Virus record (IMG/VR): IMGVR_UViG_3300032285_002032
Location: 1 to 24,307 of that record
From: a virus
Direction: 5' to 3' (one strand)
Length of the DNA stretch: 24,307 nucleotides
Shown here piece by piece: positions 6,689 to 24,307 of the stretch. The translations under genes and the position numbers were made by a program. The first letter of the stretch is position 1. Each line of letters begins with the position of its first letter. The notes under the pieces were generated by a model. That model was not told the DNA's origin and searched no databases. It saw nothing but the letters and a program-made list of their open reading frames with translations.

Positions 6689-6962
6689 TTAAGTCACCGC
6701 TTGAAAGTCCTTGAATAGCTAAAACCATTGCAAACGCCTTGATTCCAACCTGCGTCATAATGTTCTCCAATTCCCTGAGCTCGTTGATGTCTCTCTTAGT
6801 ATCAGCTAGGAGAATATCACGGTCCACTGACACCAGCATTTGGTGAATTCGATCCGATGATGGTTCTGGTAGATAAAAATCTACTTTGCGCATAAATTGG
6901 TCATGAGCAGACGTGAATACGTCATGGCTCTCTTTCAGTAAATCCTTATTCTTGCGTGGCAT
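6681..6962 (-). CDS. Small helical protein, unknown function
   Basis: This is a 93-residue protein beginning MPRKNK. I choose this start because AAGGGGAAACAA sits directly before it, matching other starts in this genome; the reading frame is open further upstream. It is probably all-helical, with heptad-like stretches in the middle. No motif is recognised. It sits between the resolvase and the RecB-like nuclease and overlaps both slightly, so it may be part of the recombination set. Confidence 0.6.
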   Translation of the reverse strand: MPRKNKDLLKESHDVFTSAHDQFMRKVDFYLPEPSSDRIHQMLVSVDRDILLADTKRDINELRELENIMTQVGIKAFAMVLAIQGLSSGDLND

Positions 6963-7320
6963 TTGTTTCCCCTTCAGTTCTTGGATCGCCATAACCCGCG
7001 TCTCGTAGTAGTTCCACGAGAATTTTAAGCGGGACGATCGCTGGCCATTTCTCTATTGACGCAGGTCCAAAACCATCTGGCCGAAGAACCGCCACCGGAA
7101 TAATTCCGTCGGCAATTCGTTCAGCAGCTTGATTCATAGCTTCAGTGACTGGGAAACCCCTGCGTGCTTTAACTTCCCAGTCAATTCCAACCGTTCCGGT
7201 GACATCTGTTCCTTGCCGACCTGCTCCGGCAGATTCAGCAAAAGGCCAACCATGCGCCGCGAGATAGTTTGCCACTATTTTTTGCGTCGCATAACCGCGA
7301 TGTTTCCGATGTTGACTCAT
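6946..7320 (-). CDS. Holliday junction resolvase-like PD-(D/E)XK nuclease
   Basis: Starting at the ATG at 7320 (ATGA overlap with the upstream stop), the protein is 124 residues. It shows a helical start (GYATQKIVANYLAAHGW), then GRQGTDVTG with the metal-binding Asp, then DWEVKAR with the catalytic Glu and Lys. This is the compact archaeal-Hjc-like / PD-(D/E)XK layout annotated as Holliday junction resolvase in many actinophages. It should bind branched DNA and resolve recombination or replication junctions before packaging. The longer open frame from 7464 is rejected because it lies wholly inside the upstream gene. Confidence 0.75.
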   Translation of the reverse strand: MSQHRKHRGYATQKIVANYLAAHGWPFAESAGAGRQGTDVTGTVGIDWEVKARRGFPVTEAMNQAAERIADGIIPVAVLRPDGFGPASIEKWPAIVPLKILVELLRDAGYGDPRTEGETNATQE

Positions 7321-8153
7321 ACGATCCGTTCTCGAGCTTGATAGACAGCGCTTTCGAGCCAGTGCTCGAAGGTGGTCAATCCTGGCAGGTAAAGGTTCGC
7401 TTGCCACCCATAAAGGATAGCTCTTGCGGTCAAACTTATTTCTTCGATCGTATTTTTTGACCAAAGAGGTTCATAGTCCCAAGTTCCGTCATCGATAGCT
7501 CTTAGCTGCTCAGCCTTTTCAATGTCTCGGTGGTATAAGTGTAAGGAACCAACGGAGTGAGAATACCAACCCATCGGCAGATCCAGAGCCTTAGCTACCG
7601 CGCCCTGCATGGCGGCAAATTGGACTAAATCATATGGAAGACCAAGCCAGACGTCATTCGAGCGCATAGTCGTTCTCATGCAGAGCGAGCCGTTCCGGAT
7701 CAAGAACTGAAGAGCAAGCGTGCAAGGAATGTCCTTGACCTTGGCTCCAAGATCTTGCTTTGAGTCAAATATGGTCAAAATGGCCTGACGTGTATCTGGA
7801 TCAGACTTTAAGAGATCGACCAAAGCATCAAGCCGACCGTAGATCCGCTGACCGTAAGCTCCGTGAAAGACGCCGCCGTCAAGATAATTGGCGAAGACAC
7901 TAGATCCAGAGACTACTAATTCTGGCGCCACGGTAGTACCAACCAACTGCAGCGCTTCAACAGCGCCGATAAAAGGCTTTAGCTCTCGATATCGGACCTC
8001 GTAAGGCATCAACCATGGACGATTTACCTTGAACGTCACGTTGGTGAGTTCTTGAGTGTCCTGACCTCTAGGAGAGATTTTGTCCCCGTGGATCAAACAC
8101 ATGCCGATAGCTGATTCAACTACTTCGGACGGAGTATCAAGTTCAAGATACAT
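7317..8153 (-). CDS. dCMP hydroxymethylase-like enzyme (thymidylate synthase fold)
   Basis: This 278-residue enzyme has the thymidylate synthase fold. Its catalytic positions run two residues behind E. coli ThyA numbering: Cys144 (DIPC; ThyA Cys146), Arg164-Ser165 (Arg166-Ser167), Asp167 (Asp169), and His205 and Tyr207 in GSLHLYH (His207, Tyr209). The key difference is LGLPYDL: Asp175 replaces Asn177, the residue that selects uracil. Asp at this site is characteristic of dCMP hydroxymethylases such as T4 gp42 and of CMP hydroxymethylases such as MilA. I therefore infer that it converts dCMP to 5-hydroxymethyl-dCMP (or methyl-dCMP) using methylene-tetrahydrofolate. Neighbours are a dNMP kinase, an all-alpha dUTPase/dCTPase-like enzyme and dCMP deaminase. 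Ordinary thymidylate synthase activity remains possible. Confidence 0.75.
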   Translation of the reverse strand: MYLELDTPSEVVESAIGMCLIHGDKISPRGQDTQELTNVTFKVNRPWLMPYEVRYRELKPFIGAVEALQLVGTTVAPELVVSGSSVFANYLDGGVFHGAYGQRIYGRLDALVDLLKSDPDTRQAILTIFDSKQDLGAKVKDIPCTLALQFLIRNGSLCMRTTMRSNDVWLGLPYDLVQFAAMQGAVAKALDLPMGWYSHSVGSLHLYHRDIEKAEQLRAIDDGTWDYEPLWSKNTIEEISLTARAILYGWQANLYLPGLTTFEHWLESAVYQARERIV

Positions 8154-8616
8154 CTGGTAGATCCCTTTCTAGGTGGTTTGAATTAATGATTTCAACGTTA
8201 TGCATGCGATCAGCAAGGTCAATAAACATGTCCTGAGCTTTGATCACGTTGTCAATTTGGTCCTGTTCGCCGCGAAGCATGAGAGTTGTAGCTATCGCAT
8301 CAATGTCTCGATAGACCAGAATTAAACGAGCGCCTAACTCATCGATCATGGCATTACATATTGTGAATGATTCTGGTCGCTTGTACAACGATTGACGATT
8401 AAAAATCGTTGGCCAGATCATTTCACCCATATGCCAGCGATCCAAGATCAGATTTTCACCTTCTTCGGCATCAACAATTGGCTTAATATATTCTTCAAAC
8501 CAGTGCTTATGCGTTGGAACTCCGGCGTGCAGAATTCGAGCATTTTGTTCCTTAGCTAACCACGCAGCATGAGAGCTCTTTCCAGTCCCATCAACGCCTT
8601 CAAGTATTGTAATCAT
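8143..8616 (-). CDS. Deoxynucleoside monophosphate kinase (thymidylate kinase-like)
   Basis: A 157-residue P-loop kinase. The Walker A GVDGTGKSS lies at residues 7-15, a DRW motif (LILDRWH) follows near 58-64, and a lid-like segment with Arg (LMLRGEQ) near 112-118. This is the thymidylate kinase superfamily, shorter than the usual 200 or so residues. It should phosphorylate a dNMP to dNDP; the neighbouring hydroxymethylase-like gene makes a modified dCMP a plausible substrate, as with T4 gp1. I choose the ATG at 8616, which overlaps the upstream stop as ATGA and has AAAGGA 7 bases upstream; a TTG six bases earlier also fits. The 3' end overlaps the next gene. Confidence 0.8.
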   Translation of the reverse strand: MITILEGVDGTGKSSHAAWLAKEQNARILHAGVPTHKHWFEEYIKPIVDAEEGENLILDRWHMGEMIWPTIFNRQSLYKRPESFTICNAMIDELGARLILVYRDIDAIATTLMLRGEQDQIDNVIKAQDMFIDLADRMHNVEIINSNHLERDLPDVS

Positions 8617-9062
8617 GCGCAATCCTTTGGAAAACCATCGTCGTATTCGCAGCCTTCAGAGACTGAACACATGACGCCAGCGTCGTCAAAAGCTCTCTTG
8701 CATTCAGGACACTTGCCCCAAACGCCGTCATAACCATCAGTCTGGCGCTTTGCATTTCTGTCGGCCTTGTCTAAGTAACGGATCTCAACTTCGTCCGCCG
8801 TAGCACCAACCGCTAGCCATAGATTTACAATAAAGTGAAGAACGTCGACAAGCTCGCCGACAAACGCCTCACGGTTAATATGTCGAGATGTGGCCCACGG
8901 TTTCCAGCCAACCTCAGCAAGAGCTTCGTGAAGCTCATCAGTTGCGGCAAGTATCATGTCCTTAATGAACTGAATTTTCTCGTCTTCAGGAAGATTCTCT
9001 GGATCGATACCAAAAGATTCTTTCTGAAGTACGGCTTGTCGCATAAAAATTGAATCAAGCAT
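8613..9062 (-). CDS. Dimeric dUTPase/MazG-type all-alpha NTP pyrophosphohydrolase with C-terminal zinc finger
   Basis: The 149-residue product carries the four-helix NTP pyrophosphohydrolase metal motifs: ExxE in TDELHEA (Glu43, Glu46), then ExxD in VGELVDVLHF (Glu70, Asp73), and the ending KADRNAKRQTDGYDG. This resembles dimeric dUTPases, the superfamily to which T4 dCTPase/dUTPase gp56 is assigned. It would hydrolyse dUTP and/or dCTP to the monophosphate. A cysteine-rich C-terminal extension (CPEC at 118-121, Cys132, Cys138) looks like a zinc finger and is unusual for the core family. In a cytosine-modifying phage such an enzyme removes dCTP and feeds dCMP to the hydroxymethylase; otherwise it provides dUMP for dTMP synthesis. 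Ribosome site AAGGGGAAATAA is ideal. Confidence 0.8.
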   Translation of the reverse strand: MLDSIFMRQAVLQKESFGIDPENLPEDEKIQFIKDMILAATDELHEALAEVGWKPWATSRHINREAFVGELVDVLHFIVNLWLAVGATADEVEIRYLDKADRNAKRQTDGYDGVWGKCPECKRAFDDAGVMCSVSEGCEYDDGFPKDCA

Positions 9063-9486
9063 TTATTTCCCCTTCGTACTTCTTGACGTGTATACCCAAT
9101 CGATCTGCAATCCTGTTTAGCTGATCTGGCGGATATGTTTCTTGGTTGATTTCTTCTAAATAGAAGACCTCTTTGATGCCGTAAGCTGAGATCAGCGGAA
9201 GGCAATTCATACAGGGCCGATGCGTTACCGCAAGAAGTCCGCCGCGCGTATCTGAAGGAACAACGTACCGAAGTGCGTTAGCTTCAGCATGGATTACATA
9301 AGGACGCCTGGACTCGCGATCGTCCCAATTCAACGATACGCCCGAAGGCGCGCCGTTGTATCCAATACTAGCCACTGATCGATCTGGTCTAAGTACAACC
9401 GCACCGACCTTTAACCACGGATCTTCGCTACGAAGTGCCGCGGTTTCTGCCAAGGCAAGGGCATATTCTGTCCAATTAAGTCTCAT
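9055..9486 (-). CDS. Deoxycytidylate (dCMP) deaminase
   Basis: The 143-residue zinc enzyme has the cytidine/deoxycytidylate deaminase signature: His66-Ala-Glu68 (HAE) for zinc and proton shuttle, and PCMNC at 91-95 for the other two zinc ligands. A substrate loop YNGAPSG lies near 43-49. Length is normal for phage dCMP deaminases. It converts dCMP to dUMP, supplying dTMP synthesis. Its start overlaps the HTH gene stop (ATGA) and its end overlaps the next gene's start. Its presence together with a dCMP hydroxymethylase-like enzyme mirrors T-even phages, which carry both. Confidence 0.9.
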   Translation of the reverse strand: MRLNWTEYALALAETAALRSEDPWLKVGAVVLRPDRSVASIGYNGAPSGVSLNWDDRESRRPYVIHAEANALRYVVPSDTRGGLLAVTHRPCMNCLPLISAYGIKEVFYLEEINQETYPPDQLNRIADRLGIHVKKYEGEINA

Positions 9487-9698
9487 CGCGACGATCGTTT
9501 TCGACCGTCACTCTGGCGAACTAATTGTTGCACCCTAGAAGTCGAGAGCTTTAGGATTTGAGCTATTTCGGCATATGTCATACCGTGATTTCTGGCCCTA
9601 AGGATCACTTCTAAGAACTTTTGTTTACTGTTGGCCACGGAAACGGAGTGTTTTTTGACCTCCCGATGCCAATGTTTTAACTGCTCTTCAATTGTCAT
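9483..9698 (-). CDS. Helix-turn-helix DNA-binding protein
   Basis: This 71-residue protein carries a clear HTH at about 40-61 (MTYAEIAQILKLSTSRVQQL), of the sigma70 region-4 / MarR-like type used to read short operators. The N-terminal half is helical and the C-terminus is basic. It is the second minus-strand gene from the divergent control region and is coupled to both neighbours by ATGA overlaps. The nearby palindromes and 10-bp repeats at 10034-10124 are natural candidate targets, making it a candidate switch or early-gene repressor. This link is inference. Confidence 0.75.
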   Translation of the reverse strand: MTIEEQLKHWHREVKKHSVSVANSKQKFLEVILRARNHGMTYAEIAQILKLSTSRVQQLVRQSDGRKRSSR

Positions 9699-14759: not shown

Positions 14760-15893
14760 TTACGGTAGAACTAGTCGGGTTGAATTCATAGGTGAGGTCT
14801 GATAAGTAACATTCCAGTCGTCTGGAGTAATTTTATGTTGCATACCTTCAACAACAAGATAAATGGTCAAATTACGTCCGTCAACCGTTGTTCTTTTGAC
14901 TGTTACCTGATCTAAGAGTTCTGTTGATAAGAAATCAGGATATAAGACATCGAGCGCCAGCGCCGTAAAGTTAATTTCAGCAACCGTTGTATTTGGTTTT
15001 GCGTCTTTGGTTGCAAGATATGTTGCAAGTTTTTGCGCCGTGTTGTCACTAAGAATAGCGGTTTCAACGCTTACCGTCTTTGTTCCATACTTGGTTACGC
15101 TTGGTTTATAGGTAAAGGTCTTTTGCTTAAGCTTACCTCGTGTTACTACGGCATTATTAATAACCTGAAGGGTTCCAGGAGTGGTCTTAATGCTATTGTA
15201 TTCAACCGTGTTTACTGCACGAGAATCATCAAACAAGAGCTGCGTAGGACGATTAAACTTCTCAGTATTAGTAATAAAGGTTGCTACACCAGTTCGACTG
15301 ACATAAAATCCGCCAGCTTCAGCAAGAACGCACTCGTTAATCATGTCAGTTACGTTTTGATCTTGACCAGTCTTTTGCATGACAACGGATCCTGAGATAT
15401 TACGCCAGGAAGATCCGGTAGGCCAACCAGCGTATGTAAGCATACGACCAACACGCGTTGAGGTCGTCTCTTGATATGCTGTAGTCTTAAGCGCCGGAGC
15501 TGTTACCTTGGAAAACTTGGCAATAGCATCGACAAAAGTCATGGTAACAAAAGCATCAAATCCAGCATTAACGTCAGTGGTTTCAAGGTATCCATCAAAT
15601 AAAACATAACCTGAACCTGACCAGGTAGCTACAAAGCGCGCTCGAAGACCATCACGCAGCGCAGTAACACCACCAGATACCCAAGGTCCAGATAGGTTAT
15701 CTGGATCGTAATTGCCTGATCTATTGTCAAAGACGACGCTCATACTGCCAGCATCGACCTTCTGATCAGCGCGAGCTCGACCTCGGTTGAGGTTAACCTC
15801 TCTCAGATCTGCTACAGGAACAGTCTGAAAAGATCCGCCAAAGTAAAACTGAACCTTTAGCGTTGGTCCATTTGTACCATCAAAAGCACTCAC
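14760..15893 (-). CDS. Minor tail protein (distal tail/baseplate type)
   Basis: A 377-residue protein directly downstream of the tape measure gene in reading order, in the usual place for distal tail or tail-hub proteins. It is beta-rich. The early region (REVNLNRGRARADQK, then GSMSVVFDNRSGNYDPDN) matches the minor tail proteins of actinobacterial siphoviruses. It starts with GTG, preceded by GGGGG at good spacing, immediately after the tape measure stop. Which baseplate position it takes cannot be told from sequence. Confidence 0.75.
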   Translation of the reverse strand: MSAFDGTNGPTLKVQFYFGGSFQTVPVADLREVNLNRGRARADQKVDAGSMSVVFDNRSGNYDPDNLSGPWVSGGVTALRDGLRARFVATWSGSGYVLFDGYLETTDVNAGFDAFVTMTFVDAIAKFSKVTAPALKTTAYQETTSTRVGRMLTYAGWPTGSSWRNISGSVVMQKTGQDQNVTDMINECVLAEAGGFYVSRTGVATFITNTEKFNRPTQLLFDDSRAVNTVEYNSIKTTPGTLQVINNAVVTRGKLKQKTFTYKPSVTKYGTKTVSVETAILSDNTAQKLATYLATKDAKPNTTVAEINFTALALDVLYPDFLSTELLDQVTVKRTTVDGRNLTIYLVVEGMQHKITPDDWNVTYQTSPMNSTRLVLP

Positions 15894-17438
15894 TTAAACC
15901 CCCAGAATTGCCGGATTAAGACCTTTTCGCCGTAAAAGCTGAGCCATTTCATTGCGCACTTTAACAGCAAGATCCTTTTCAGCAATGACAGATCCAGCAA
16001 CGTGAACGTTAACGATCATGCCCTGGCCAAATCCACTCTTGAGAGGAACAACAGCTTCAGGACCTGCCTCGCCGATCATGGCAAGCGTTGGCTTGTTTAC
16101 GATTCCGCCATCGGCTAGCATTGGGATCTTGGGAATATTAACGCCAAATTCCTTGCCGCCAAGCTTTGGAACCCATGAAGGGATCTTGAAGTGGATCTTG
16201 TTAATAATGCCAATAACAAAATTAATTAGGCTAATAATAGTATTTATGTATGCCTTAACGCCGTTAAGAACAAAGCTAAATACGTTGGAAATAATATGAC
16301 CAACGCCGCGGGCAACGCTGATGATGTCCTTGAAGACGTCTACAATCCAACGAAGAGCCGTGACAACGACCTTTGACGCAAGCGCAAGGGCCTTGAACAC
16401 GACGTCAATAAGGAACAAAAGGACCGGAGCTAAATACTTCATAATAAATGTCCATACTGGCTTTAGTACGGAAAGAAGAATCTTAAACACTTCTCCAAGC
16501 TCGTGGAAAATAATCTTTGCGTTCTTGCCAATATCGTGGAACTTTGACAAGCTATCCTTGGCGTGAATAAAGTGCTGAATTAAAGGAATAACGTGAGCAA
16601 TTAAGGCTCTAATTGTGTTGACATATGGCGCAATAATCTCTGCGCCTTTCTTAAATGCAGGATTAACGTACTTAAGAATAATTGGAAATATCTGAGTAAA
16701 TCCAACCATTGCCTTGGTAAGGATCGGTGTTAAATGCGCTCCGATCTGAACCTGGACGCCCTCAACAGCGCGAGACAAAGCCTTGTGAGCTTCGATGCTA
16801 TCGGCAACAGCCTTCATATTGTCCTTGGTCAGGACAAGGCCATATTTCTGCGCTTCTGCTTCTAGTTCTTCAAGTCCTTTTTTACCCTTATTAAGGAACT
16901 TAAGCATATCAAGACCGGTACGACCAAAGAGGTTTACCGCTGCCGCAGTCTTATGGATACCGTTTGGCATGTTCTTAAACTTTTCGGCAGTGTCAAGAAG
17001 GATCGCATTAAACGACTTTTGATGACCACTTGCATCTCTTGTAGAAATGCGCAATTCCTTGAAGTGCTTATTGTTGGAATCAACGGCTTGAGCAAATTTC
17101 TTAATTGACATCTGAGCTTGATCAACTGAAAGACCAGATTCAACAAATGCGTAGCGCAAACGAGAGGCATCCTCAACGGTGCCGCCAATCATACGCTGAG
17201 TCTTGGCAACCTGCTTACCAACGTCAGTAAAAGCGGTTAACGATTCTTTACCAAATTTAAGTAATTCATCGCCAGCTTTTTCAAATAAATGTGCAGAGAA
17301 AACACCGGCAGCAATTTCTTTAATACGAGAAAACGCGCCGCCGGTTTCTCTTGCGCTATCGGCAACCTTTTTTAACGCCTTGGATGCAGATAAATCTCGA
17401 CCGATCAGATTTACGCCAAGCGACTTATCACTGGACAT
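15894..17438 (-). CDS. Tape measure protein
   Basis: The 514-residue protein is long and mainly helical, with a hydrophobic middle (about 240-390). The typical C-terminal motif LADGGIVNKPT-x-AMIGEAGPEAVVPL is split by variable residues near 440-466. It is placed after the chaperone pair and before the minor tail protein, as in most siphoviruses. It sets tail length and is released during DNA injection. At about 0.15 nm per residue it predicts a fairly short tail near 75-80 nm. Ribosome site TAGGAG lies just before the ATG. No muralytic domain is visible. Confidence 0.9.
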   Translation of the reverse strand: MSSDKSLGVNLIGRDLSASKALKKVADSARETGGAFSRIKEIAAGVFSAHLFEKAGDELLKFGKESLTAFTDVGKQVAKTQRMIGGTVEDASRLRYAFVESGLSVDQAQMSIKKFAQAVDSNNKHFKELRISTRDASGHQKSFNAILLDTAEKFKNMPNGIHKTAAAVNLFGRTGLDMLKFLNKGKKGLEELEAEAQKYGLVLTKDNMKAVADSIEAHKALSRAVEGVQVQIGAHLTPILTKAMVGFTQIFPIILKYVNPAFKKGAEIIAPYVNTIRALIAHVIPLIQHFIHAKDSLSKFHDIGKNAKIIFHELGEVFKILLSVLKPVWTFIMKYLAPVLLFLIDVVFKALALASKVVVTALRWIVDVFKDIISVARGVGHIISNVFSFVLNGVKAYINTIISLINFVIGIINKIHFKIPSWVPKLGGKEFGVNIPKIPMLADGGIVNKPTLAMIGEAGPEAVVPLKSGFGQGMIVNVHVAGSVIAEKDLAVKVRNEMAQLLRRKGLNPAILGV

Positions 17439-17446
17439 GATTTCTC

Positions 17447-17907
17447 CTAATCGTTTTTGGGAATAGCTGCAATGAGATCATTGATAATATCAATATCAAT
17501 ATCCCAGACGTTAAACGGTGTAATTCCTGGATAATTGTGACATAGAAGGGCCATATTTTGCCTGATCTTCTGTCTGGTACCGCCACGGATCAAGGCCCGG
17601 CGGTTACTTATTTTTTTAGATCAGGATCCTCAACGCCGATTTCTTCAATTGAATATGTGTTAAGAACGTCATCAATTGAAACAATCTTTCCAGCGCGAGT
17701 CAAGCAAATCCATGCCAAAGCATAAAGAGCTTTAACCTTTGAATACTTTGGATTAGCGTGAGGCTCATCTTCGCCAAGAGTACTGAGCAAGGTCAGACCA
17801 TCAAGTCCAAAACCTTCTTCAATCTGGATAATCTCGCGACCCGTAGGTCCTGGTTGATTATCTTCTCCGGGCATTGGATAGTTTTCGCCACGTAGTACTA
17901 GTGCCAT
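17447..17907 (-). CDS. Tail assembly chaperone GT fusion made by -1 frameshift
   Basis: Reading the upstream gene (17608-17907) to the A7 stretch and slipping back one base gives a further 54 codons, ending at TAG 17449-17447, 9 bases before the tape measure start. The combined product is 153 residues. The frameshift extension begins ISNRRALIRG and includes TPFNVWDIDID. It contains no good start site of its own, as expected for a protein made only by frameshift. The GT protein binds the tape measure and recruits tail tube subunits in lambda-like assembly. Confidence 0.8.
17608..17907 (-). CDS. Tail assembly chaperone G
   Basis: The 99-residue, acidic, mainly helical protein sits between the gp10-like and tape measure genes, the standard position of the tail assembly chaperone. 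It ends with DPDLKK followed by a stop exactly on an A7 slippery run, the classical arrangement for making the G and GT pair. AAAGGGGAAAATA precedes the ATG. It should be made in excess over the fusion and help the tape measure protein fold and attract tail tube protein. Confidence 0.85.
   Translation of the reverse strand: MALVLRGENYPMPGEDNQPGPTGREIIQIEEGFGLDGLTLLSTLGEDEPHANPKYSKVKALYALAWICLTRAGKIVSIDDVLNTYSIEEIGVEDPDLKK
17611..17617 (-). promoter_or_regulatory. Programmed -1 frameshift slippery site A AAA AAA
   Basis: In the zero frame the minus strand reads CTA AAA AAA TAA, giving the canonical X XXY YYZ heptamer A AAA AAA just before the stop. A -1 slip enters the 54-codon T frame that stays open to 17447. 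The T frame lacks its own ribosome site, which supports real use of the slip. Confidence 0.8.
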
Positions 17908-17918
17908 TATTTTCCCCT

Positions 17919-18452
17919 TTAGTCGAGTGCGTGCGATTTCTTTAGTGCGGCCAGAAAAGCCGCGTAGACATCTTCTCTGAGTTCTGCCTTATGTGGAAGT
18001 ACCGTGCGCAGCAGGAACGGGGTTGATTTTTGAGCAACCCAATTACCCTGCCAAGTTCCATTGGTAGATCTTTTTTCAGGAAATACCGGGTGACGCCAGG
18101 CTTTCTTAGAAAGACCTTCAACGTAACGCGGAAGCTTCTTATACTTGCCAGTTTTTGCTTGGAATTTAGTTCCTGAGACTCGAATACGGATACTGAAACC
18201 GCTTCGGTTACTCTGGTTAATCTTAGTCTCTGTTGCTGCCGCGATGCCAGCACGCAAGCCCATTTTTCCCTCTGAGGATTTCTCCCCGTGTGAAGGAAGT
18301 TCTAGAGCCGCGTGCTGGACCTCGCCAACAATGCTTTTAGACAACTTGACAAGAGTCTTCCGGAGCTCCTTGCCGATCAGGGGATCGGCGTCCTTTACCT
18401 GGCGGTAAAAGTTAAGGAGATCCTGAGAGGAAATCTCAATGTCTTTAGACAC
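17919..18452 (-). CDS. HK97 gp10-like head-tail/tail completion protein
   Basis: This 177-residue protein resembles HK97 gp10-type proteins: helices with LRKTLVKLSKSIV early, then a Ser/Gly-rich turn and beta strands (GFSIRIRVSGTKF), a conserved RYVEGL/HPVF region, and a final helix. Such proteins act at the neck or tail end during joining. The place between the major tail protein and the chaperones is unusual, since gp10-like genes usually precede the tail terminator. It starts with GTG, one base after the upstream stop, without a clear ribosome site, so coupling is likely. Confidence 0.6.
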   Translation of the reverse strand: MSKDIEISSQDLLNFYRQVKDADPLIGKELRKTLVKLSKSIVGEVQHAALELPSHGEKSSEGKMGLRAGIAAATETKINQSNRSGFSIRIRVSGTKFQAKTGKYKKLPRYVEGLSKKAWRHPVFPEKRSTNGTWQGNWVAQKSTPFLLRTVLPHKAELREDVYAAFLAALKKSHALD

Positions 18453-18453
18453 C

Positions 18454-19401
18454 TTAGAGAGATGTGTCCGAAGTTGTGTAAACGACGGTCATTGGTGCAT
18501 CTGTACCGTTATCGTATGCGGTGAAAGTCATCGCAAGATCGATTACGCCAGGGCCTGGGACCTTAGGAGTATCAGCGTCAAACTTAACCGCTGAAAGAGT
18601 GATAGATAGAGCAGATCCAGCAGATCCAGTGAATGTCAAAGCAACCGCTGCAGTTGTATCAGCAAGATACTTAGCAAGAAGCGTTGTATCTGTGAATTCA
18701 GCAGTTAGCTTACCAGTGATCTTACGGAAGCCATTGATAACCTGCTCAGCCTTAGCTCCAGCAGCTCCAAGGTTGTAACGATCTGTCTTAATCGTGTTAT
18801 CTACGGTTACTGAGAAGTCCTTGACGTTAGCAATTGCCGATCCGTCAAGCGTGATTGCGCCTTGAGCAAAGTGGAAGATAGATCCGTTTGCTGGATAAGA
18901 AGCTGTTGCAAGAGATGTTGAGGTTGTAAGACCTGCAGCATCAACACTGAACTTACCGACAGCAAGTTCACCAGCGCCTACGCCGAGCTCAAATGATGAG
19001 ATCTTGCAGCCTGTAAGAGTCTTTGGAGTTACAGTTCCGCCGTACTGAGGGACACCAACCTGAGCGGTAAAGCTCTTTGTATAAGTATCGCCAAGAGTGA
19101 ACGTGAAAGATGATCCGCTCTTAGTAGGAAATGAACCCATTGCGTGAGCAAGGAGAAGTCCAAGACCGTTTGTTGGAAGATCTAGATTAATATCGCCTGT
19201 AGCATCAAATGTTGTAACAACACGACGCTGTGAGCGAGGAAGAAGTCCACCAGCGCGAAGCCCCATACCTTCGCTGATCTTCTTATTGTATTGAGTAGAT
19301 TCGTCAGTGAACTCGTAGAAACGAGTCACGGTGACGTTGGTGTTAAAGGTTGTCTCGGTAGCAATGCCGAGCTGCGAACCTATACCGGAACCGATTGCCA
19401 T
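18454..19401 (-). CDS. Major tail protein (tail tube)
   Basis: The 315-residue, beta-rich protein begins MAIGSGIGSQLGIATE and shows the usual repeated Thr/Gly/Ala-rich strands. DINLDLPTNGLGLLLAHAMG (about 71-90) and a C-terminal ITLSAVKFDADTP-like strand region are also present. It stands between tail terminator and chaperone genes, the normal place of the tail tube subunit, and no sheath gene accompanies it. Subunits polymerise as stacked rings around the tape measure protein. Ribosome site AATAGGAGAACAAC is strong, fitting high expression. Confidence 0.85.
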   Translation of the reverse strand: MAIGSGIGSQLGIATETTFNTNVTVTRFYEFTDESTQYNKKISEGMGLRAGGLLPRSQRRVVTTFDATGDINLDLPTNGLGLLLAHAMGSFPTKSGSSFTFTLGDTYTKSFTAQVGVPQYGGTVTPKTLTGCKISSFELGVGAGELAVGKFSVDAAGLTTSTSLATASYPANGSIFHFAQGAITLDGSAIANVKDFSVTVDNTIKTDRYNLGAAGAKAEQVINGFRKITGKLTAEFTDTTLLAKYLADTTAAVALTFTGSAGSALSITLSAVKFDADTPKVPGPGVIDLAMTFTAYDNGTDAPMTVVYTTSDTSL

Positions 19402-19410
19402 GTTGTTCTC

Positions 19411-19617
19411 CTATTCGGCAGCCGGTGCGTCCGGCGCTGCTGGGGTTTGGATCATTGAAGCAGCTGCTTGATCAGCGGCAGCCCAATTTTCTGTTTGTTC
19501 TAGAAGCGAAGCTGCTGCTTCGTCTGTAACCTCGACGACATCGCCAGCCTTAACAGTTAAGCCTAAAGCGGGGACAGATAAGTCGCCAAGTGGTGAAACA
19601 TTTTTAATTTTCGCCAT
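19411..19617 (-). CDS. Small Ala-rich virion-module protein
   Basis: This 68-residue protein has a small beta-hairpin-like start (GLTVKAGDVVEVTDE) and an Ala/Pro-rich end. Small proteins of this form lie beside the tail tube gene in several siphoviruses. A role in head-tail joining or tail tube handling is inferred only from position. Ribosome site AAGGAGAATCTC is good. No catalytic motif. Confidence 0.6.
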   Translation of the reverse strand: MAKIKNVSPLGDLSVPALGLTVKAGDVVEVTDEAAASLLEQTENWAAADQAAASMIQTPAAPDAPAAE

Positions 19618-19630
19618 GAGATTCTCCTTG

Positions 19631-20089
19631 TTAAGTACGAGCGTGATATGCGATGGTGAAGTTAATTACGACTACAGCGCCAGCGTTAGTCTGACGGTAG
19701 GTTGGTGAATGTGATTCTAAACCTGCGTAAAGAACAACTCCACCAAAACTAGGGTCGGTGCGGATTACGGTGTCCACCGCCGAAAGAAGAGCATAAGCTC
19801 GTGTGCGACGGGCAGAAATATCTGTATCGCCGTCCCAAGACCAAAGAAAACAGTTTACCGTACCAATTTCAAACATCTTCTTGGCACCGACAAGGTTCCA
19901 GTCGTTGTTTGCGGTTCCTGCGAGTACTTCTCCGTCTTCAGATCCATCATGACCCACGCAAATGGCATCGCCTGGATAAGACTCATCAATTTCTGGACCG
20001 TCAAAGATTCGGACGCCAGAAAGAGATGCTGCTGAACTTAAAGCTGTTTTAATGCCATCAATCAGCTGCGGCAGCGCAACCGTTGTCAT
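19631..20089 (-). CDS. Tail terminator protein
   Basis: A 152-residue protein between the connector and major tail protein genes, the normal place of the tail terminator. It starts with a helix (LPQLIDGIKTALSSA), followed by beta strands and an ARRTRAYALLSAVDTVIRTD helix, like the alpha/beta fold of lambda gpU-type terminators. It would cap the tail tube at the head-proximal end and set the stop of polymerisation. Its start overlaps the connector stop by one base (TAATG). Assigned by context and general fold, not by a definite motif. Confidence 0.65.
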   Translation of the reverse strand: MTTVALPQLIDGIKTALSSAASLSGVRIFDGPEIDESYPGDAICVGHDGSEDGEVLAGTANNDWNLVGAKKMFEIGTVNCFLWSWDGDTDISARRTRAYALLSAVDTVIRTDPSFGGVVLYAGLESHSPTYRQTNAGAVVVINFTIAYHART

Positions 20090-20934
20090 TAGGCAAGTCC
20101 AGGAAGTGAGAGAGGATCGAGGAGTTCCATCGCGCGACGTGGCAATGAATATGTTGACGCTGGATAGAAATCGTCTCCGGTCTGGTTACGTGTAATTACG
20201 TTTGCAGCGCCTCGTTGAGTCTGCCATAGATGACGAATAGTCTCAAGAACGCCTTGCTTTGCGGCAGGTGGTGGATTAATAAACCCTGCGACGTAGCTTA
20301 CAACAATATTATTGGCTCCTGGAGCAAAGATTCCAAAGTAGGTTGGACTAGAAAGCGCCCCGGTTGTCACGCGATACACGCGCTGACCGGTTGGATCTAG
20401 GCTGTAATCGGTTGAGGCAAGAAGAAGGCCGTTTTCATAGATCGAGGTAATGCTGAGCGCCTTAGGGTTACGAAGGCGAATATGATCAACATTTCCGTCG
20501 TACTTTTCACTAGTAAATGTCTGACGTCCTAAGATAACGCCAAGATAGCTCTCGCAAAGGTCGGTCGCAGCGTCAATAAAGCGACGGATTTCCTCATCGT
20601 TGGTTGTATTGGTTGCTGCAATATTAAGGTGAGCCTTGACTTCATCGAGTGAAACTACGCCAAGATCTGCAAAGTTGCGGACGGTAAATTCATCAGCATA
20701 TGCGCTGGCATTTGTACCGGTAGCAACCCAGCGGATCGTGTGACGACCGTATTGAGTTGGTGTGTAGTTAATGTCATAAAGACCGGTTCCAGAGTGCGAT
20801 ACCGAAGGTGTAGAAGAAGATCCGTCTGGAGCAACGACCGTTGCTACAACCGCTGTTGCATCTGCTGGTGATCCTGCCGCGTCGGTAATCGTTACGCCAA
20901 GAGCAACAACATCGCCTAAATCATAAACGGCCAT
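20089..20934 (-). CDS. Head-tail connector (gp6-like) with N-terminal Ig-like domain
   Basis: The 281-residue protein has two parts. Residues 1-90 resemble an Ig-like adhesion domain (GTGLYDINYTPTQYGRHTIRW). The rest is a helical gp6/gp15-like connector: VSLDEVKAHLNI, DEEIRRFIDAATDLCESYLG, a beta region, and a final helix with VLETIRHLWQTQ. The connector ring sits under the portal and leads DNA to the tail. The added Ig-like domain is unusual for a connector and could decorate the neck or bind surfaces. Coupled by TAATG to the tail terminator. Confidence 0.75.
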   Translation of the reverse strand: MAVYDLGDVVALGVTITDAAGSPADATAVVATVVAPDGSSSTPSVSHSGTGLYDINYTPTQYGRHTIRWVATGTNASAYADEFTVRNFADLGVVSLDEVKAHLNIAATNTTNDEEIRRFIDAATDLCESYLGVILGRQTFTSEKYDGNVDHIRLRNPKALSITSIYENGLLLASTDYSLDPTGQRVYRVTTGALSSPTYFGIFAPGANNIVVSYVAGFINPPPAAKQGVLETIRHLWQTQRGAANVITRNQTGDDFYPASTYSLPRRAMELLDPLSLPGLA

Positions 20935-20936
20935 AA

Positions 20937-21134
20937 TTATCTGCCTCTCATATTTGTTGTCGCAACGACTCGGACACCCATGTCACCGCGGTTTGTGTAA
21001 TAGTTGTAAATAACTAAAGGTTGGTTATACATCACACCGGTTTGGTTGTAGCGGTAGTGATATTTGGACGCCTCGTGAGACTCGCGCCAGTTCATAGAGG
21101 GAGCGGCAACTACGCGAGGTTGAATATCACTCAC
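20937..21134 (-). CDS. Small Tyr/Asn-rich protein, unknown
   Basis: This 65-residue protein is rich in Tyr, Asn and Arg (YHYRYNQTG, then YNQPLVIYNYYTN). It has no recognised motif. It starts with GTG, overlapping the glycosyltransferase end by 8 bases with GGAG at good spacing, and stops 2 bases before the connector start. Given its place it may be a small virion or assembly protein. Confidence 0.55.
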   Translation of the reverse strand: MSDIQPRVVAAPSMNWRESHEASKYHYRYNQTGVMYNQPLVIYNYYTNRGDMGVRVVATTNMRGR

Positions 21135-22179
21135 TTATAGCTCCTTCATAATGCTTGAGGTTTTCCTTGAGACGATCAATCCAGGGAGCAAGTTCGACGG
21201 CTTTTCTGCCATGCTTGACAGCTTCTGAATAGTTATTAAGGTTATATGCTGAAATCGCAACCAAATCGTGAGGCAAGTATCCCCAGGCATCCGATTCTAC
21301 TAGATATTCCAGCGGTTGCTGCGTAATCCTGAGCGCCGAGTGAGCCATAGCATAGCACTCAATCCAGCGACCTTCTGAGTAGTAATGCTCGGCAAGATCG
21401 ACCCGGGGTTCCCGGCTGATCGGGGATTCTGCAATAGCTTTGAACAGCCAGCTCTCCCGATCCTGATCCTCCATCTTGGCAAGGTATCTCATAGAAGCCG
21501 CGCGTTCTGGTTTCCAGACTGCCTTAGGAAGCTCTAGGTGACGCTTAAACTGAGCAATAGCTTCGGTGTAATGATTGTGAAAGAAGAGTTCCCGGGCATA
21601 ATAAAAGGTATTCCGATCATCGGTCGGGTCTTCCTTTATTGCCAGGCGTAAAAGGGGAAAATATTGACCCCTGGACTTAGTTTGGTCCGGGTGATGATGA
21701 ATCTCAAGCTTGGTCCATAGCTGATTTTCCTGATCCTGACAGGTGAGAACCTCGTGAACAGGGTGCTTCCAGCGAAATCCTTTGCGTGCGTGGATCTTGT
21801 CCCCACCATAGGTAAGGCCAGGAGATCCGTCCGGGTTCCAGGACCAGGTGTACTTATACCGAGGTCGATTAACACCAGGATCTAATGCCTCAAGCTCAGA
21901 TCTCCAGCCAGGGAACAGGACTTCGTCCATGTCTAAAGCTATGCAGTAGTCAACATCAAGCGGAAGCGCGGCTAATGCGGCATTGCGGGCGTCATCAAAG
22001 CGCCAGGGTGAGATCTGGACGCTAATAACCTTAATACCCAAAGCTTCAGCCTTGGATCTGGTCTCATCGGTCGATCCGGTGTCCGCGATCAGCAAAACAT
22101 CGGCTTCTTTGGCCGATTCATACCATTTCTGGACAAATTGCTCTTCATTAAGCGCAATTGTATAGACTGCAATTTTCAT
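21127..22179 (-). CDS. GT-A (family 2-like) glycosyltransferase with TPR-like C-terminus
   Basis: The 350-residue enzyme shows a GT-A fold. It has the start strand IAVYTIALNEEQF, the nucleotide-binding DTGSTDET (Asp33), the FDDARNAAL segment near 61-69 common in this group, and a DMD metal motif at 83-85. The catalytic part covers about 1-190; the remaining 160 residues are helical and repeat-like, consistent with a TPR-type tail. It transfers a sugar from a nucleotide sugar. The acceptor is unknown: virion protein glycosylation fits the gene's place among structural genes, while DNA glycosylation of hydroxymethylcytosine fits the hydroxymethylase-like gene at 7317-8153. Confidence 0.8.
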   Translation of the reverse strand: MKIAVYTIALNEEQFVQKWYESAKEADVLLIADTGSTDETRSKAEALGIKVISVQISPWRFDDARNAALAALPLDVDYCIALDMDEVLFPGWRSELEALDPGVNRPRYKYTWSWNPDGSPGLTYGGDKIHARKGFRWKHPVHEVLTCQDQENQLWTKLEIHHHPDQTKSRGQYFPLLRLAIKEDPTDDRNTFYYARELFFHNHYTEAIAQFKRHLELPKAVWKPERAASMRYLAKMEDQDRESWLFKAIAESPISREPRVDLAEHYYSEGRWIECYAMAHSALRITQQPLEYLVESDAWGYLPHDLVAISAYNLNNYSEAVKHGRKAVELAPWIDRLKENLKHYEGAISE

Positions 22180-22188
22180 ACTTCTCCC

Positions 22189-22989
22189 CTAACGAAGTAA
22201 ATTAACCAAAGATCGCGTTCTTCCGTGTGCCAGTTGAGTGTAGACCTGAGTTGTGGCTACGCTGGTGTGCCGCATAAGTTCCTTTACAGCTACCAAATCT
22301 CCGCCGGAGCGTTCTAGCATATCAGTTGCAAAATAGTGACGCAAAGAGTGAAAATGCTTGGCGTCAGGTCCCAAGATGCGACGCATTTCATTGGCCGCTC
22401 TTGTACTAAACTTGTTAGCTGTCACATTCCAAAGACGACCAAGAGTATCGTATTTCCTGATGGTTTCAGCAACCATAGGGCTGACCGGAATGACCAAATC
22501 GGTGTTTCCCTTGCCAATAACTGTCAACATTGGACCCTCGTCAGTATCAAACAAATCGGAGCCCTTGATAACCGAAGCTTCGCAGCATCGAAGACCCGCC
22601 ATACCGCCCAGAATAAACCAGTCGCGATATATAGGCTGAGCGTCTTGAAGAAGTTTTGCGTATTCCGCTTTGGTTACTGGCTTTGGCGAGGATCGACCAA
22701 CCTTTACCTTGGCTAAATCCTCAGCTGGATTATTACCATTAACCAAGCCCATTTTGTTTAGAGAGCCATAAATAGAACGCAATCGGGCAACATAATTTGC
22801 CTTGGTTGACTGCTTAGTTGCACGTAAAATAATGTTATTTTCCAAGTCTTCAACCGTGGCTAAAGCTGGGTGGACGCCGATTCTGCGGATAATCTGCAGA
22901 TCGGTGAGAATCACGCTGCGAGTAAAGCCGCTTGCCTGGTATCGATTGGTAAGCTTCTTTTCAATCACTTCCATTGGTGTTAGTTCCAT
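22189..22989 (-). CDS. Tyrosine recombinase (phage integrase)
   Basis: The 266-residue protein has an N-terminal SAM-like core-binding domain (about 10-95) and a catalytic domain. All catalytic residues are visible: Arg134 (AGLRCCEA), Lys160 in GKGN, His214-x-x-Arg217 (HSLRH), His241 (RHTSVATTQ) and Tyr250 (VYTQL). It should integrate or excise the genome or resolve DNA between short sites. It lies inside the structural gene region, between a receptor-binding-like gene and a glycosyltransferase, where integrases are not usual. There is no obvious excisionase or repressor next to it and no attP core is recognisable. A candidate promoter lies just upstream; the ATG itself lacks a good ribosome site. 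Confidence 0.88.
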   Translation of the reverse strand: MELTPMEVIEKKLTNRYQASGFTRSVILTDLQIIRRIGVHPALATVEDLENNIILRATKQSTKANYVARLRSIYGSLNKMGLVNGNNPAEDLAKVKVGRSSPKPVTKAEYAKLLQDAQPIYRDWFILGGMAGLRCCEASVIKGSDLFDTDEGPMLTVIGKGNTDLVIPVSPMVAETIRKYDTLGRLWNVTANKFSTRAANEMRRILGPDAKHFHSLRHYFATDMLERSGGDLVAVKELMRHTSVATTQVYTQLAHGRTRSLVNLLR

Positions 22990-23010
22990 ACCAGGAAACG
23001 TACCAGATTG

Positions 23011-23039
23011 GAATTACCTTTGCCGGAGTGTTTTGTCTA
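23011..23039 (-). promoter_or_regulatory. Candidate promoter of the recombinase gene
   Basis: On the minus strand TAGACA (23039-23034, one base off TTGACA) and TAATTC (23016-23011) are spaced by 17 bases, placing transcription start a few bases before the recombinase ATG at 22989. The -10 is weak. The recombinase lacks a ribosome site, so a nearly leaderless transcript is possible. The 91-base gap 22990-23080 also holds two GGAGTGTT repeats (plus strand) and no gene. Confidence 0.35.
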
Positions 23040-23080
23040 GCTCGGGTGATCCGGGGTAAGTTTCTGTGGAGTGTTCCAGC

Positions 23081-23242
23081 CTAGCCCTGTGGGGCTGAGT
23101 TGGCTGCAAGTGTGGCTAGATAGGCTTGGTAATCTGAGTTGGCAGGGTCGGTAGGAATGAAAGCAACCACGCCAGCCTCATCAGTCCGAACGATTATTTC
23201 TTGATTGAAAGCGTTGGTTTGTTTTTCATAAGTGATTGCCAT
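23081..23242 (-). CDS. Small phage protein next to the fibre-like gene
   Basis: The 53-residue protein begins MAITYEK and is coupled to the upstream gene by TAATG. It ends with DPANSDYQAYLATLAANS, a small helix. Short proteins with this DPxNxDYQxYLA end are found downstream of tail-fibre-type genes in siphoviruses. Role unknown; it may assist folding or be part of the virion. Confidence 0.6.
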   Translation of the reverse strand: MAITYEKQTNAFNQEIIVRTDEAGVVAFIPTDPANSDYQAYLATLAANSAPQG

Positions 23243-24300
23243 TATAACTCCGCATCTGCTGTGTAATGAACGAGTAAACCAGTTGCACTAGCAGAACCAG
23301 AACTATAAACAATTCCAGCCGCATCAGAAGCATTTGCAAATGCAACGGTTTGACCAGTAGTGGTGGGAGAACCAATTGAAAACCTGCCAGTTTTATTTGA
23401 AGCGCCAGAAGAATCGTAAAGCGTTACAGTTGGTGATGTTCTTTTCACAATTTTATAGACCAAACCAAGACTCAAATAAGAAGTAGTTGGTGAAGCCGCA
23501 TTTGTTGAAGAAGTAATTGCATTCGTTTCTGTTGCGCTTCCTGGATTTGTTCCTTGCGCATAAGACTTTTCGTAATATCGCATACAGAGGGCTAACTCTC
23601 CTTGGAGTGTTCCTGATGCGGTGGTGAATGGTGTGGCTACTGAGCCGTTCTCTGCCTGTACGCCCCAAATGCTGAAGGTATTGTTCTGCGTTCCGATTGA
23701 ACTGGCGCGAGTGTTGAAAGATGAGCCAGCCGATACCCATAGATTTACGGCAATGCTTGAGCCTGTACCAATAGTTGCTCCGCTAATTGAAGGAACTGTG
23801 AATGTCAGAGAATATCTAGCCCAAGATGTTGAGATGGTTACCGCGCCGCCCGGGGTTGAGAGTGTGCCACCTGAACCACCTGAGCCAAGGCCGAGGTAAG
23901 TTTCAACTGCAATCTTTGGTGTGCCACTTGCGGCCTTTGCCCAAAATGAAACCGTAATGGTTTGACCAGCGAAGGTACGCATATCTTCAATGTTCTGAAT
24001 GAATAAGCCGTAATCGCCAGCACTACCGTATCCTGATGTGACAATCTGAGCATAGTTCTGTGCTTCATAACCAGCCACAGGAGCAGCGCCAGGAGTAAAT
24101 GTCTGTGGCGTTACTGTCATAGTTCCACCACTTGCAGCCATAGTCCAACGGTCAAAGCAATATCCGCTAGTTGCTGAAGTGAAGTTTCTCTGATTGATGC
24201 GGAAGTCACCATTGATGATTTTGTTCTTACCAGCAAGGAAAGGAGCTACTGCGCCACCCGAATCCTGCTGAGTCGTTGAGGTTAGTTGTGCGCGACTCAT
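23242..24300 (-). CDS. Receptor-binding/fibre-like structural protein
   Basis: The 352-residue protein is beta-rich with few charged residues. It begins with a short variable arm, followed by KNKIINGDFRINQRN (about 25-39) and a CFDRW segment, a well-known start of phage carbohydrate-binding fibre or tail proteins. TVSFWAKAASG near 115-125 continues a jelly-roll domain, and the end is a Ser/Thr/Gly-rich strand region. It likely recognises host surface sugars or decorates the virion. Its place upstream of the connector genes, apart from the other tail genes, could mean a head fibre. The start at 24300 is only 7 bases from the window edge, so its ribosome site cannot be judged. Confidence 0.75.
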   Translation of the reverse strand: MSRAQLTSTTQQDSGGAVAPFLAGKNKIINGDFRINQRNFTSATSGYCFDRWTMAASGGTMTVTPQTFTPGAAPVAGYEAQNYAQIVTSGYGSAGDYGLFIQNIEDMRTFAGQTITVSFWAKAASGTPKIAVETYLGLGSGGSGGTLSTPGGAVTISTSWARYSLTFTVPSISGATIGTGSSIAVNLWVSAGSSFNTRASSIGTQNNTFSIWGVQAENGSVATPFTTASGTLQGELALCMRYYEKSYAQGTNPGSATETNAITSSTNAASPTTSYLSLGLVYKIVKRTSPTVTLYDSSGASNKTGRFSIGSPTTTGQTVAFANASDAAGIVYSSGSASATGLLVHYTADAEL

Positions 24301-24307
24301 TATTCAC

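Follow-up and report, generated by a model that had tools for sequence, protein, structure and literature searches.

The gene at positions 7317–8153 of the window, a virus record of 24,307 bases, probably encodes a deoxycytidylate (dCMP) 5-hydroxymethylase, a reading that rests on its active-site residues, its fold in a predicted model and its gene context. The record is classed as linear, so the genome is probably incomplete. The open reading frame, which the sequence-only reading had left without a strand, lies on the minus strand, starts with ATG and encodes 278 amino acids; the plus strand of the same interval contains many stops. The product matches the thymidylate synthase (TS) family PF00303 (E=2.1e-18; 66.9 bits, Pfam cut-off 24.3) and the thymidylate synthase families of PHROG. 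Its top sequence match in the PDB is the CMP 5-hydroxymethylase MilA (5b6d; E=2.3e-24, and E=2.1e-48 with a profile built from 50 relatives).

For residue numbering, the TS-fold enzyme was aligned with E. coli ThyA from MG1655. Window residues 66, 100, 122, 144 and 164 correspond to ThyA 58, 94, 126, 146 and 166, and residues 165, 167, 175, 205 and 207 to ThyA 167, 169, 177, 207 and 209. The catalytic Cys144, the folate-activating Glu66 and the active Tyr100 are all present, and the alignment bears out the earlier placement of Cys144, Arg164, His205 and Tyr207 at a constant ThyA offset of +2, as well as the replacement of ThyA Asn177 by Asp175. The latter is not a sequencing slip, because relatives that are 98–99% identical also carry Asp175. 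Homologue searches yielded 107 TS matches, reduced to 75 non-identical ones when sequences sharing the same final 230 residues were collapsed. Asp occupies position 175 in 73 of the 75, and this residue formed part of no search pattern; the two exceptions, SPO1 gp29 and the phiW-14 enzyme, have Asn. Asp141 and Thr145 are partly selected among the homologues, since the main pattern search used DxPCT- and MRSND-like motifs. That search returned at least 589 relatives, 80 of which were kept as loci, so the group of the TS-fold enzyme is common in viral contigs.

At ThyA positions 143, 147 and 177 the TS-fold enzyme reads Asp-Thr-Asp (Asp141, Thr145 and Asp175). The same code is found in T4 gp42, the T4 dCMP hydroxymethylase, and in MilA. 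In T4 gp42, Asp179 is reported to set the preference for dCMP over dUMP, and Asp145 to activate water and to be required for hydroxymethylation (PMC6400193). Asp177 and residue 147 are described as the top two positions tied to cytosine-modified environmental contigs in a MetaGPA analysis of 433 TS sequences (PMC8670742). Asp175 and Thr145, with the matching precursor steps of the operon described below, support dCMP as the substrate, as had been proposed. The sugar positions are Ser165 (ThyA 167) and Arg122 (ThyA 126), where MilA has Ala176 and Lys133. Deoxyribose preference is reported to be set by Ser and Arg, with Ala and Lys in their place in MilA (PMC5175136), and the sequence of the TS-fold enzyme thus points to deoxy-CMP rather than CMP. 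The features by which we recognized a dCMP 5-hydroxymethylase, namely a TS fold with the Cys/Glu/Tyr set, Asp at 177 and Asp at position −3 from the catalytic Cys (Asp141), are all present. A proposed secondary hydroxymethylase signature, Ser or Thr at position −2 from the active Tyr, is absent from the TS-fold enzyme, which has Gly98. T4 has Ser94 and MilA has Thr at this position; we did not treat it as defining because the SPO1 and phiW-14 hydroxymethylases also lack it (Ala and Gly, respectively).

The AlphaFold2 model of the TS-fold enzyme, computed from 50 aligned sequences (mean pLDDT 91.8, pTM 0.92), has the TS fold. By VIA-align its best match is again MilA (PDB: 5b6d, 5jnh), with Z 28.1 and 2.5 Å over 269 aligned residues spanning residues 2–278. 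TS entries, including E. coli TS, reach Z of about 21 over about 234 residues and align to about residue 265, and the C-terminal part of the model follows the MilA helices up to residue 278, not the TS tail. No T4 gp42 chain appears in the best 50 VIA-align rows, which carries no weight alone.

In a 60-row tree, the TS rows fall on one side of a branch (support 100/100), the enzyme of Bosavirus DoCa10 branches next, and the remaining 55 rows follow (100/99). Among these, the TS-fold enzyme belongs to a 26-row clade (100/97), and T4 gp42, MilA and the dUMP enzymes all fall outside that clade. Another tree, built quickly from 50 rows (SH-aLRT only) and including the flavin-dependent hydroxylase AfhB and a near relative from Bp7, gave the same separation. 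The position of T4 gp42 is itself unsure because its branch is very long. We know of no characterized or assayed member of the 26-row clade. Since the clade groups with no tested enzyme, we assigned function from residues, fold and context.

The TS-fold gene lies in a run of overlapping minus-strand genes, with overlaps of 4–11 bases between the operon genes, in the order HTH protein, dCMP deaminase, dUTPase_2, kinase, TS-fold enzyme and resolvase-like gene. The small HTH/sigma-region-4-like protein at its head (9483–9698, minus strand) is a candidate member only. It is followed by a dCMP deaminase (9055–9486, minus strand; PF00383) that matches human dCMP deaminase (2w4l, E=5.4e-18) and also 1vq2, a T4-size deaminase structure. 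Next comes an NTP pyrophosphatase (8613–9062, minus strand) of the dUTPase_2 family PF08761 (E=2e-11), a family that the T4 dCTPase/dUTPase gp56 also matches (2e-5); a Cys-rich, zinc-ribbon-like C-terminal tail lies outside its best-matched stretch. The fourth protein is a thymidylate-kinase-fold P-loop kinase (8143–8622, minus strand), a predicted hm-dCMP kinase in the role of T4 gp1. Its Pfam score is weak (19.9 bits, under the cut-off of 27) and PDB sequences gave nothing convincing; the comparison was therefore made by fold, with a predicted model. This model (pLDDT 92.5) matches SPbeta YorR with Z 17.1 and thymidylate kinases with Z of about 13–15. The likely ATG of the resolvase-like gene (6946–7320, minus strand; PHROG 244) at 7320 overlaps the stop of the TS-fold gene; it is a replication/recombination neighbour outside the chemistry.

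T4 likewise has a dCMP deaminase (cd), and the deaminase, dUTPase_2-family pyrophosphatase and kinase make up the precursor set that T4 uses for hydroxymethylcytosine (hmC). When the fetched stretches of the 80 kept loci were searched by phmmer with the proteins of the window (E<=1e-4), a deaminase was found in 76, a kinase in 20 and a pyrophosphatase in 10. The figures are minimum values, and the loci lack independence, since some come from contigs already represented by earlier loci. All four genes occur together in 10 of the 80 (L111–L119 and L175), which include the closest relatives. ThyX was not found in any of 11 records of the window's family, and each of the four family records searched for a second ThyA has a single PF00303 gene.

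By analogy with T4 gp42, Cys144 would attack C6 of dCMP, Asp175 would recognize and protonate the cytosine ring, and methylene-tetrahydrofolate would give one carbon to C5. Water activated via Asp141 would then add to the exocyclic methylene, yielding 5-hydroxymethyl-dCMP and tetrahydrofolate (THF), where a methylating enzyme would yield a methyl group and dihydrofolate (DHF). The pyrophosphatase would convert dCTP and dUTP to monophosphates, the kinase would phosphorylate hm-dCMP, and the deaminase would convert some of the dCMP into dUMP to supply dTTP. Host enzymes would complete hm-dCTP, which would be polymerized into phage DNA. The virion DNA may thus contain hmC and be protected from host nucleases; the sequence-only reading had envisaged modified cytosine as a protection from restriction. 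DNA that does carry hmC would be expected to resist many Type II enzymes and to be sensitive to Type IV enzymes.

The earlier proposal named either hydroxymethyl- or methyl-dCMP as the product. Of the two, the hydroxymethyl product gains support from Asp141, which lies three positions ahead of the catalytic Cys, and the methyl product is disfavoured. An enzyme of the Xp12 kind, in which Asp175 would select dCMP and hydride transfer would give 5-methyl-dCMP and hence 5mC DNA, is unlikely. Asp177 is not by itself proof of hydroxymethylation, because the Asn177-to-Asp change in a TS is reported to switch preference to dCMP and to yield 5-methyl-dCMP (PMC8670742). Xp12-type methylases were represented by DoCa10, which is reported to share a genus with the 5mC phage Xp12 (PMC11946847), so that the 5mC attribution runs via Xp12. 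This single row reads Asn-Pro-Asp and lies outside the hydroxymethylase group, whereas the TS-fold enzyme has Asp141 and Thr145. Moreover, Pamexvirus phages, including Xp12, encode dihydrofolate reductase (DHFR) (PMC9206674), but no DHFR (PF00186) was found in any of the 11 family records. This would be expected if THF, not DHF, is the product; gene absences in these records, among them those of DHFR and of DNA-decorating enzymes, are nonetheless weak evidence because the contigs may be incomplete.

It is very unlikely that the gene encodes a dUMP hydroxymethylase or a divergent thymidylate synthase fed by its neighbours. The adjoining deaminase and dUTPase_2 protein would make dUMP, the three companion genes also fit plain dTTP supply, and the names given in databases read 'thymidylate synthase'. 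Against this, Asn177 is kept in all nine reference rows of these types and lost in the TS-fold enzyme, and the C-terminal part of the model fits MilA helices. The four ThyA-type rows (E. coli ThyA, RB32 td, Gordonia phage Bantam and Bacillus phage 010DV005) all read Leu-His-Asn, each residue of which is replaced in the Asp-Thr-Asp of the TS-fold enzyme. The five rows of dUMP-hydroxymethylase type all read Asp-Asn-Asn, with Asn147 and Asn177 where the TS-fold enzyme has Thr and Asp; they comprise SPO1 gp29, classed by its record note, the phiW-14 enzyme, and those of GG32, Vibrio YC and Pseudomonas Chuck, which we take to be of this type by kinship. Hypermodified thymine is reported for phiW-14 (PMC5977210).

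A possibility absent from the sequence-only reading, a flavin-dependent dCMP 5-hydroxylase that would produce 5-hydroxy-dCMP, is highly improbable. TS-superfamily 5-hydroxy-dCMP synthases are reported in Mosigvirus phages (PMC13390438), and AfhB, judged from its PDB sequence and the same report, ranks next after MilA by VIA-align (9iqc and 9iqu, Z 24.0 and 23.4); it shares the TS fold, Asp177 and Thr147 with the TS-fold enzyme, and it binds dCMP. AfhB differs in its flavin chemistry, given in the entry title. Both AfhB and its Bp7 relative read Glu-Thr-Asp with Asn169, Val173 and Phe209, as opposed to Asp at 143 and Asp, Gly and Tyr at 169, 173 and 209 in the TS-fold enzyme, and in the 50-row tree the pair is placed apart from it, on a long branch. 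Finally, a MilA-like CMP hydroxymethylase serving a small molecule or RNA is extremely improbable: MilA is the nearest solved structure by sequence and fold, with the same Asp-Thr-Asp code and a C-terminal helical region in common, but its ribose-preference pair Ala176/Lys133 is replaced by Ser165/Arg122, its gene context is different, and the TS-fold gene is located in phage contigs among deoxynucleotide genes. A short residue code separates several chemistries within one fold: 143/147/177, the sugar positions 126/167, and 169/173/209 versus the flavin hydroxylases.

Systems of the dCMP-hydroxymethylase/hmC kind have been known since T4, and the TS-fold enzyme is a well-supported further example of this kind, not a new kind. 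T4 gp42, with gp56, gp1 and cd, has in common with it Asp143/Thr147/Asp177, Ser167 and Arg126, and T4 also has a dUTPase_2-family pyrophosphatase and a dNMP kinase as companions. In contrast, T4 gp42 is 29% identical over only 134 residues and belongs to another clade, the window enzyme has C-terminal helices, the four window genes form one overlapping operon, and no DNA glucosyltransferase was identified. A study published in 2021 already described environmental phages that combine Asp177 TS homologues with modified cytosine (PMC8670742). As described there, the MetaGPA cytosine-modified contigs likewise have Asp177 and a changed residue 147, and their TS genes co-occur with a PF00383 deaminase and a pyrophosphohydrolase domain, as in the window. 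Their carbamoyltransferase partner (PF02543) was not found in any of eight window-family records, and we discarded DNA carbamoylation.

The TS-like genes of Actinomycetia phage DSL-LC01 and Gordonia phage GodonK fall into the same 26-row clade, carry Asp-Thr-Asp and lie near a thymidylate kinase and a deaminase. They differ in their 35–38% identity, larger genomes and annotated DNA polymerase I; DNA_pol_A was not found in any of six window-family records. DSL-LC01, the nearest named phage homologue, is reported to have a predicted Actinomycetia host (PMC10611076), and GodonK infects Gordonia according to its record; an actinobacterial host for the window phage is a guess. Searches of the open-access literature found no report on an actinophage dCMP hydroxymethylase or on freshwater actinobacterial phages with hydroxymethyl or TS genes, and none describing the 26-row clade (actinophage, freshwater and pyrimidine-hydroxymethylase topics). 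We tentatively hypothesize that a compact lineage, probably of actinobacteriophages, with contigs of about 36–37 kb and no family-A DNA polymerase of its own, may replace cytosine with bare hmC by means of a portable four-gene operon and the host replicase, the hmC being undecorated or decorated by an unrecognized enzyme, and that its enzyme clade, frequent among viral contigs from the environment, is without a characterized member. For viral genes filed as 'thymidylate synthase', the residue code yields a testable prediction of cytosine replacement.

Other window genes were considered in relation to the modification. The GT2-plus-TPR glycosyltransferase gene (21127–22179; PHROG 13126, E=2.6e-118) is 61.7% identical to a DSL-LC01 gene and is frequent among environmental viral contigs, one scan giving 124 relatives. 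It was rejected as an hmC decorator: among 80 viral loci with the glycosyltransferase gene, 34 records longer than 21 kb outside the window's family were searched, and a PF00303 gene was found in just one, so the two are unlinked. A tyrosine-integrase-like gene (22189–22989) lies between the glycosyltransferase and a tail gene. Among the loci searched it occurs only in L031, which is identical to positions 15115–24307 of the window, and L036; a search of the pieces of G001–G003, the three closest larger records, did not turn it up. We set aside lysogeny on this basis, the gene being variable and uninformative on the TS-fold enzyme. Dinucleotide counts gave nothing useful on DNA modification.

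The searches also brought up TS-like genes in other settings. A chromosomal locus of Salinispora mooreana (L197:7020-13050) has an Asp-Thr-Asp TS-like gene with the deoxy-type Ser/Arg pair, followed directly by a carbamoyltransferase (PF02543+PF16861), then a glycosyltransferase-like gene and later a methyltransferase, with an epimerase upstream, an arrangement that resembles a hydroxymethylcytosine-plus-carbamoyl pathway carried on an actinomycete chromosome. Six more actinomycete loci (L195, L196, L198–L200 and L202) belong to its clade. The phage PW916 gene annotated as a deoxyuridylate hydroxymethyltransferase (L216:1492-2310) reads Asp-Thr-Asp, as does that of AXL_3, and the substrate in PW916 is therefore likelier to be dCMP. 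Two combinations absent from the reference enzymes were seen, Asn143/Thr147/Asp177 in a Propionibacteriaceae MAG (L206) and Asp143/Thr147/Asn177 in L208 and L209. In Enterococcus phage vipetofem (L014:3938-6296), an Asp-Thr-Asp TS-like gene has an annotated beta-glucosyltransferase one gene on, a T4-like pairing.
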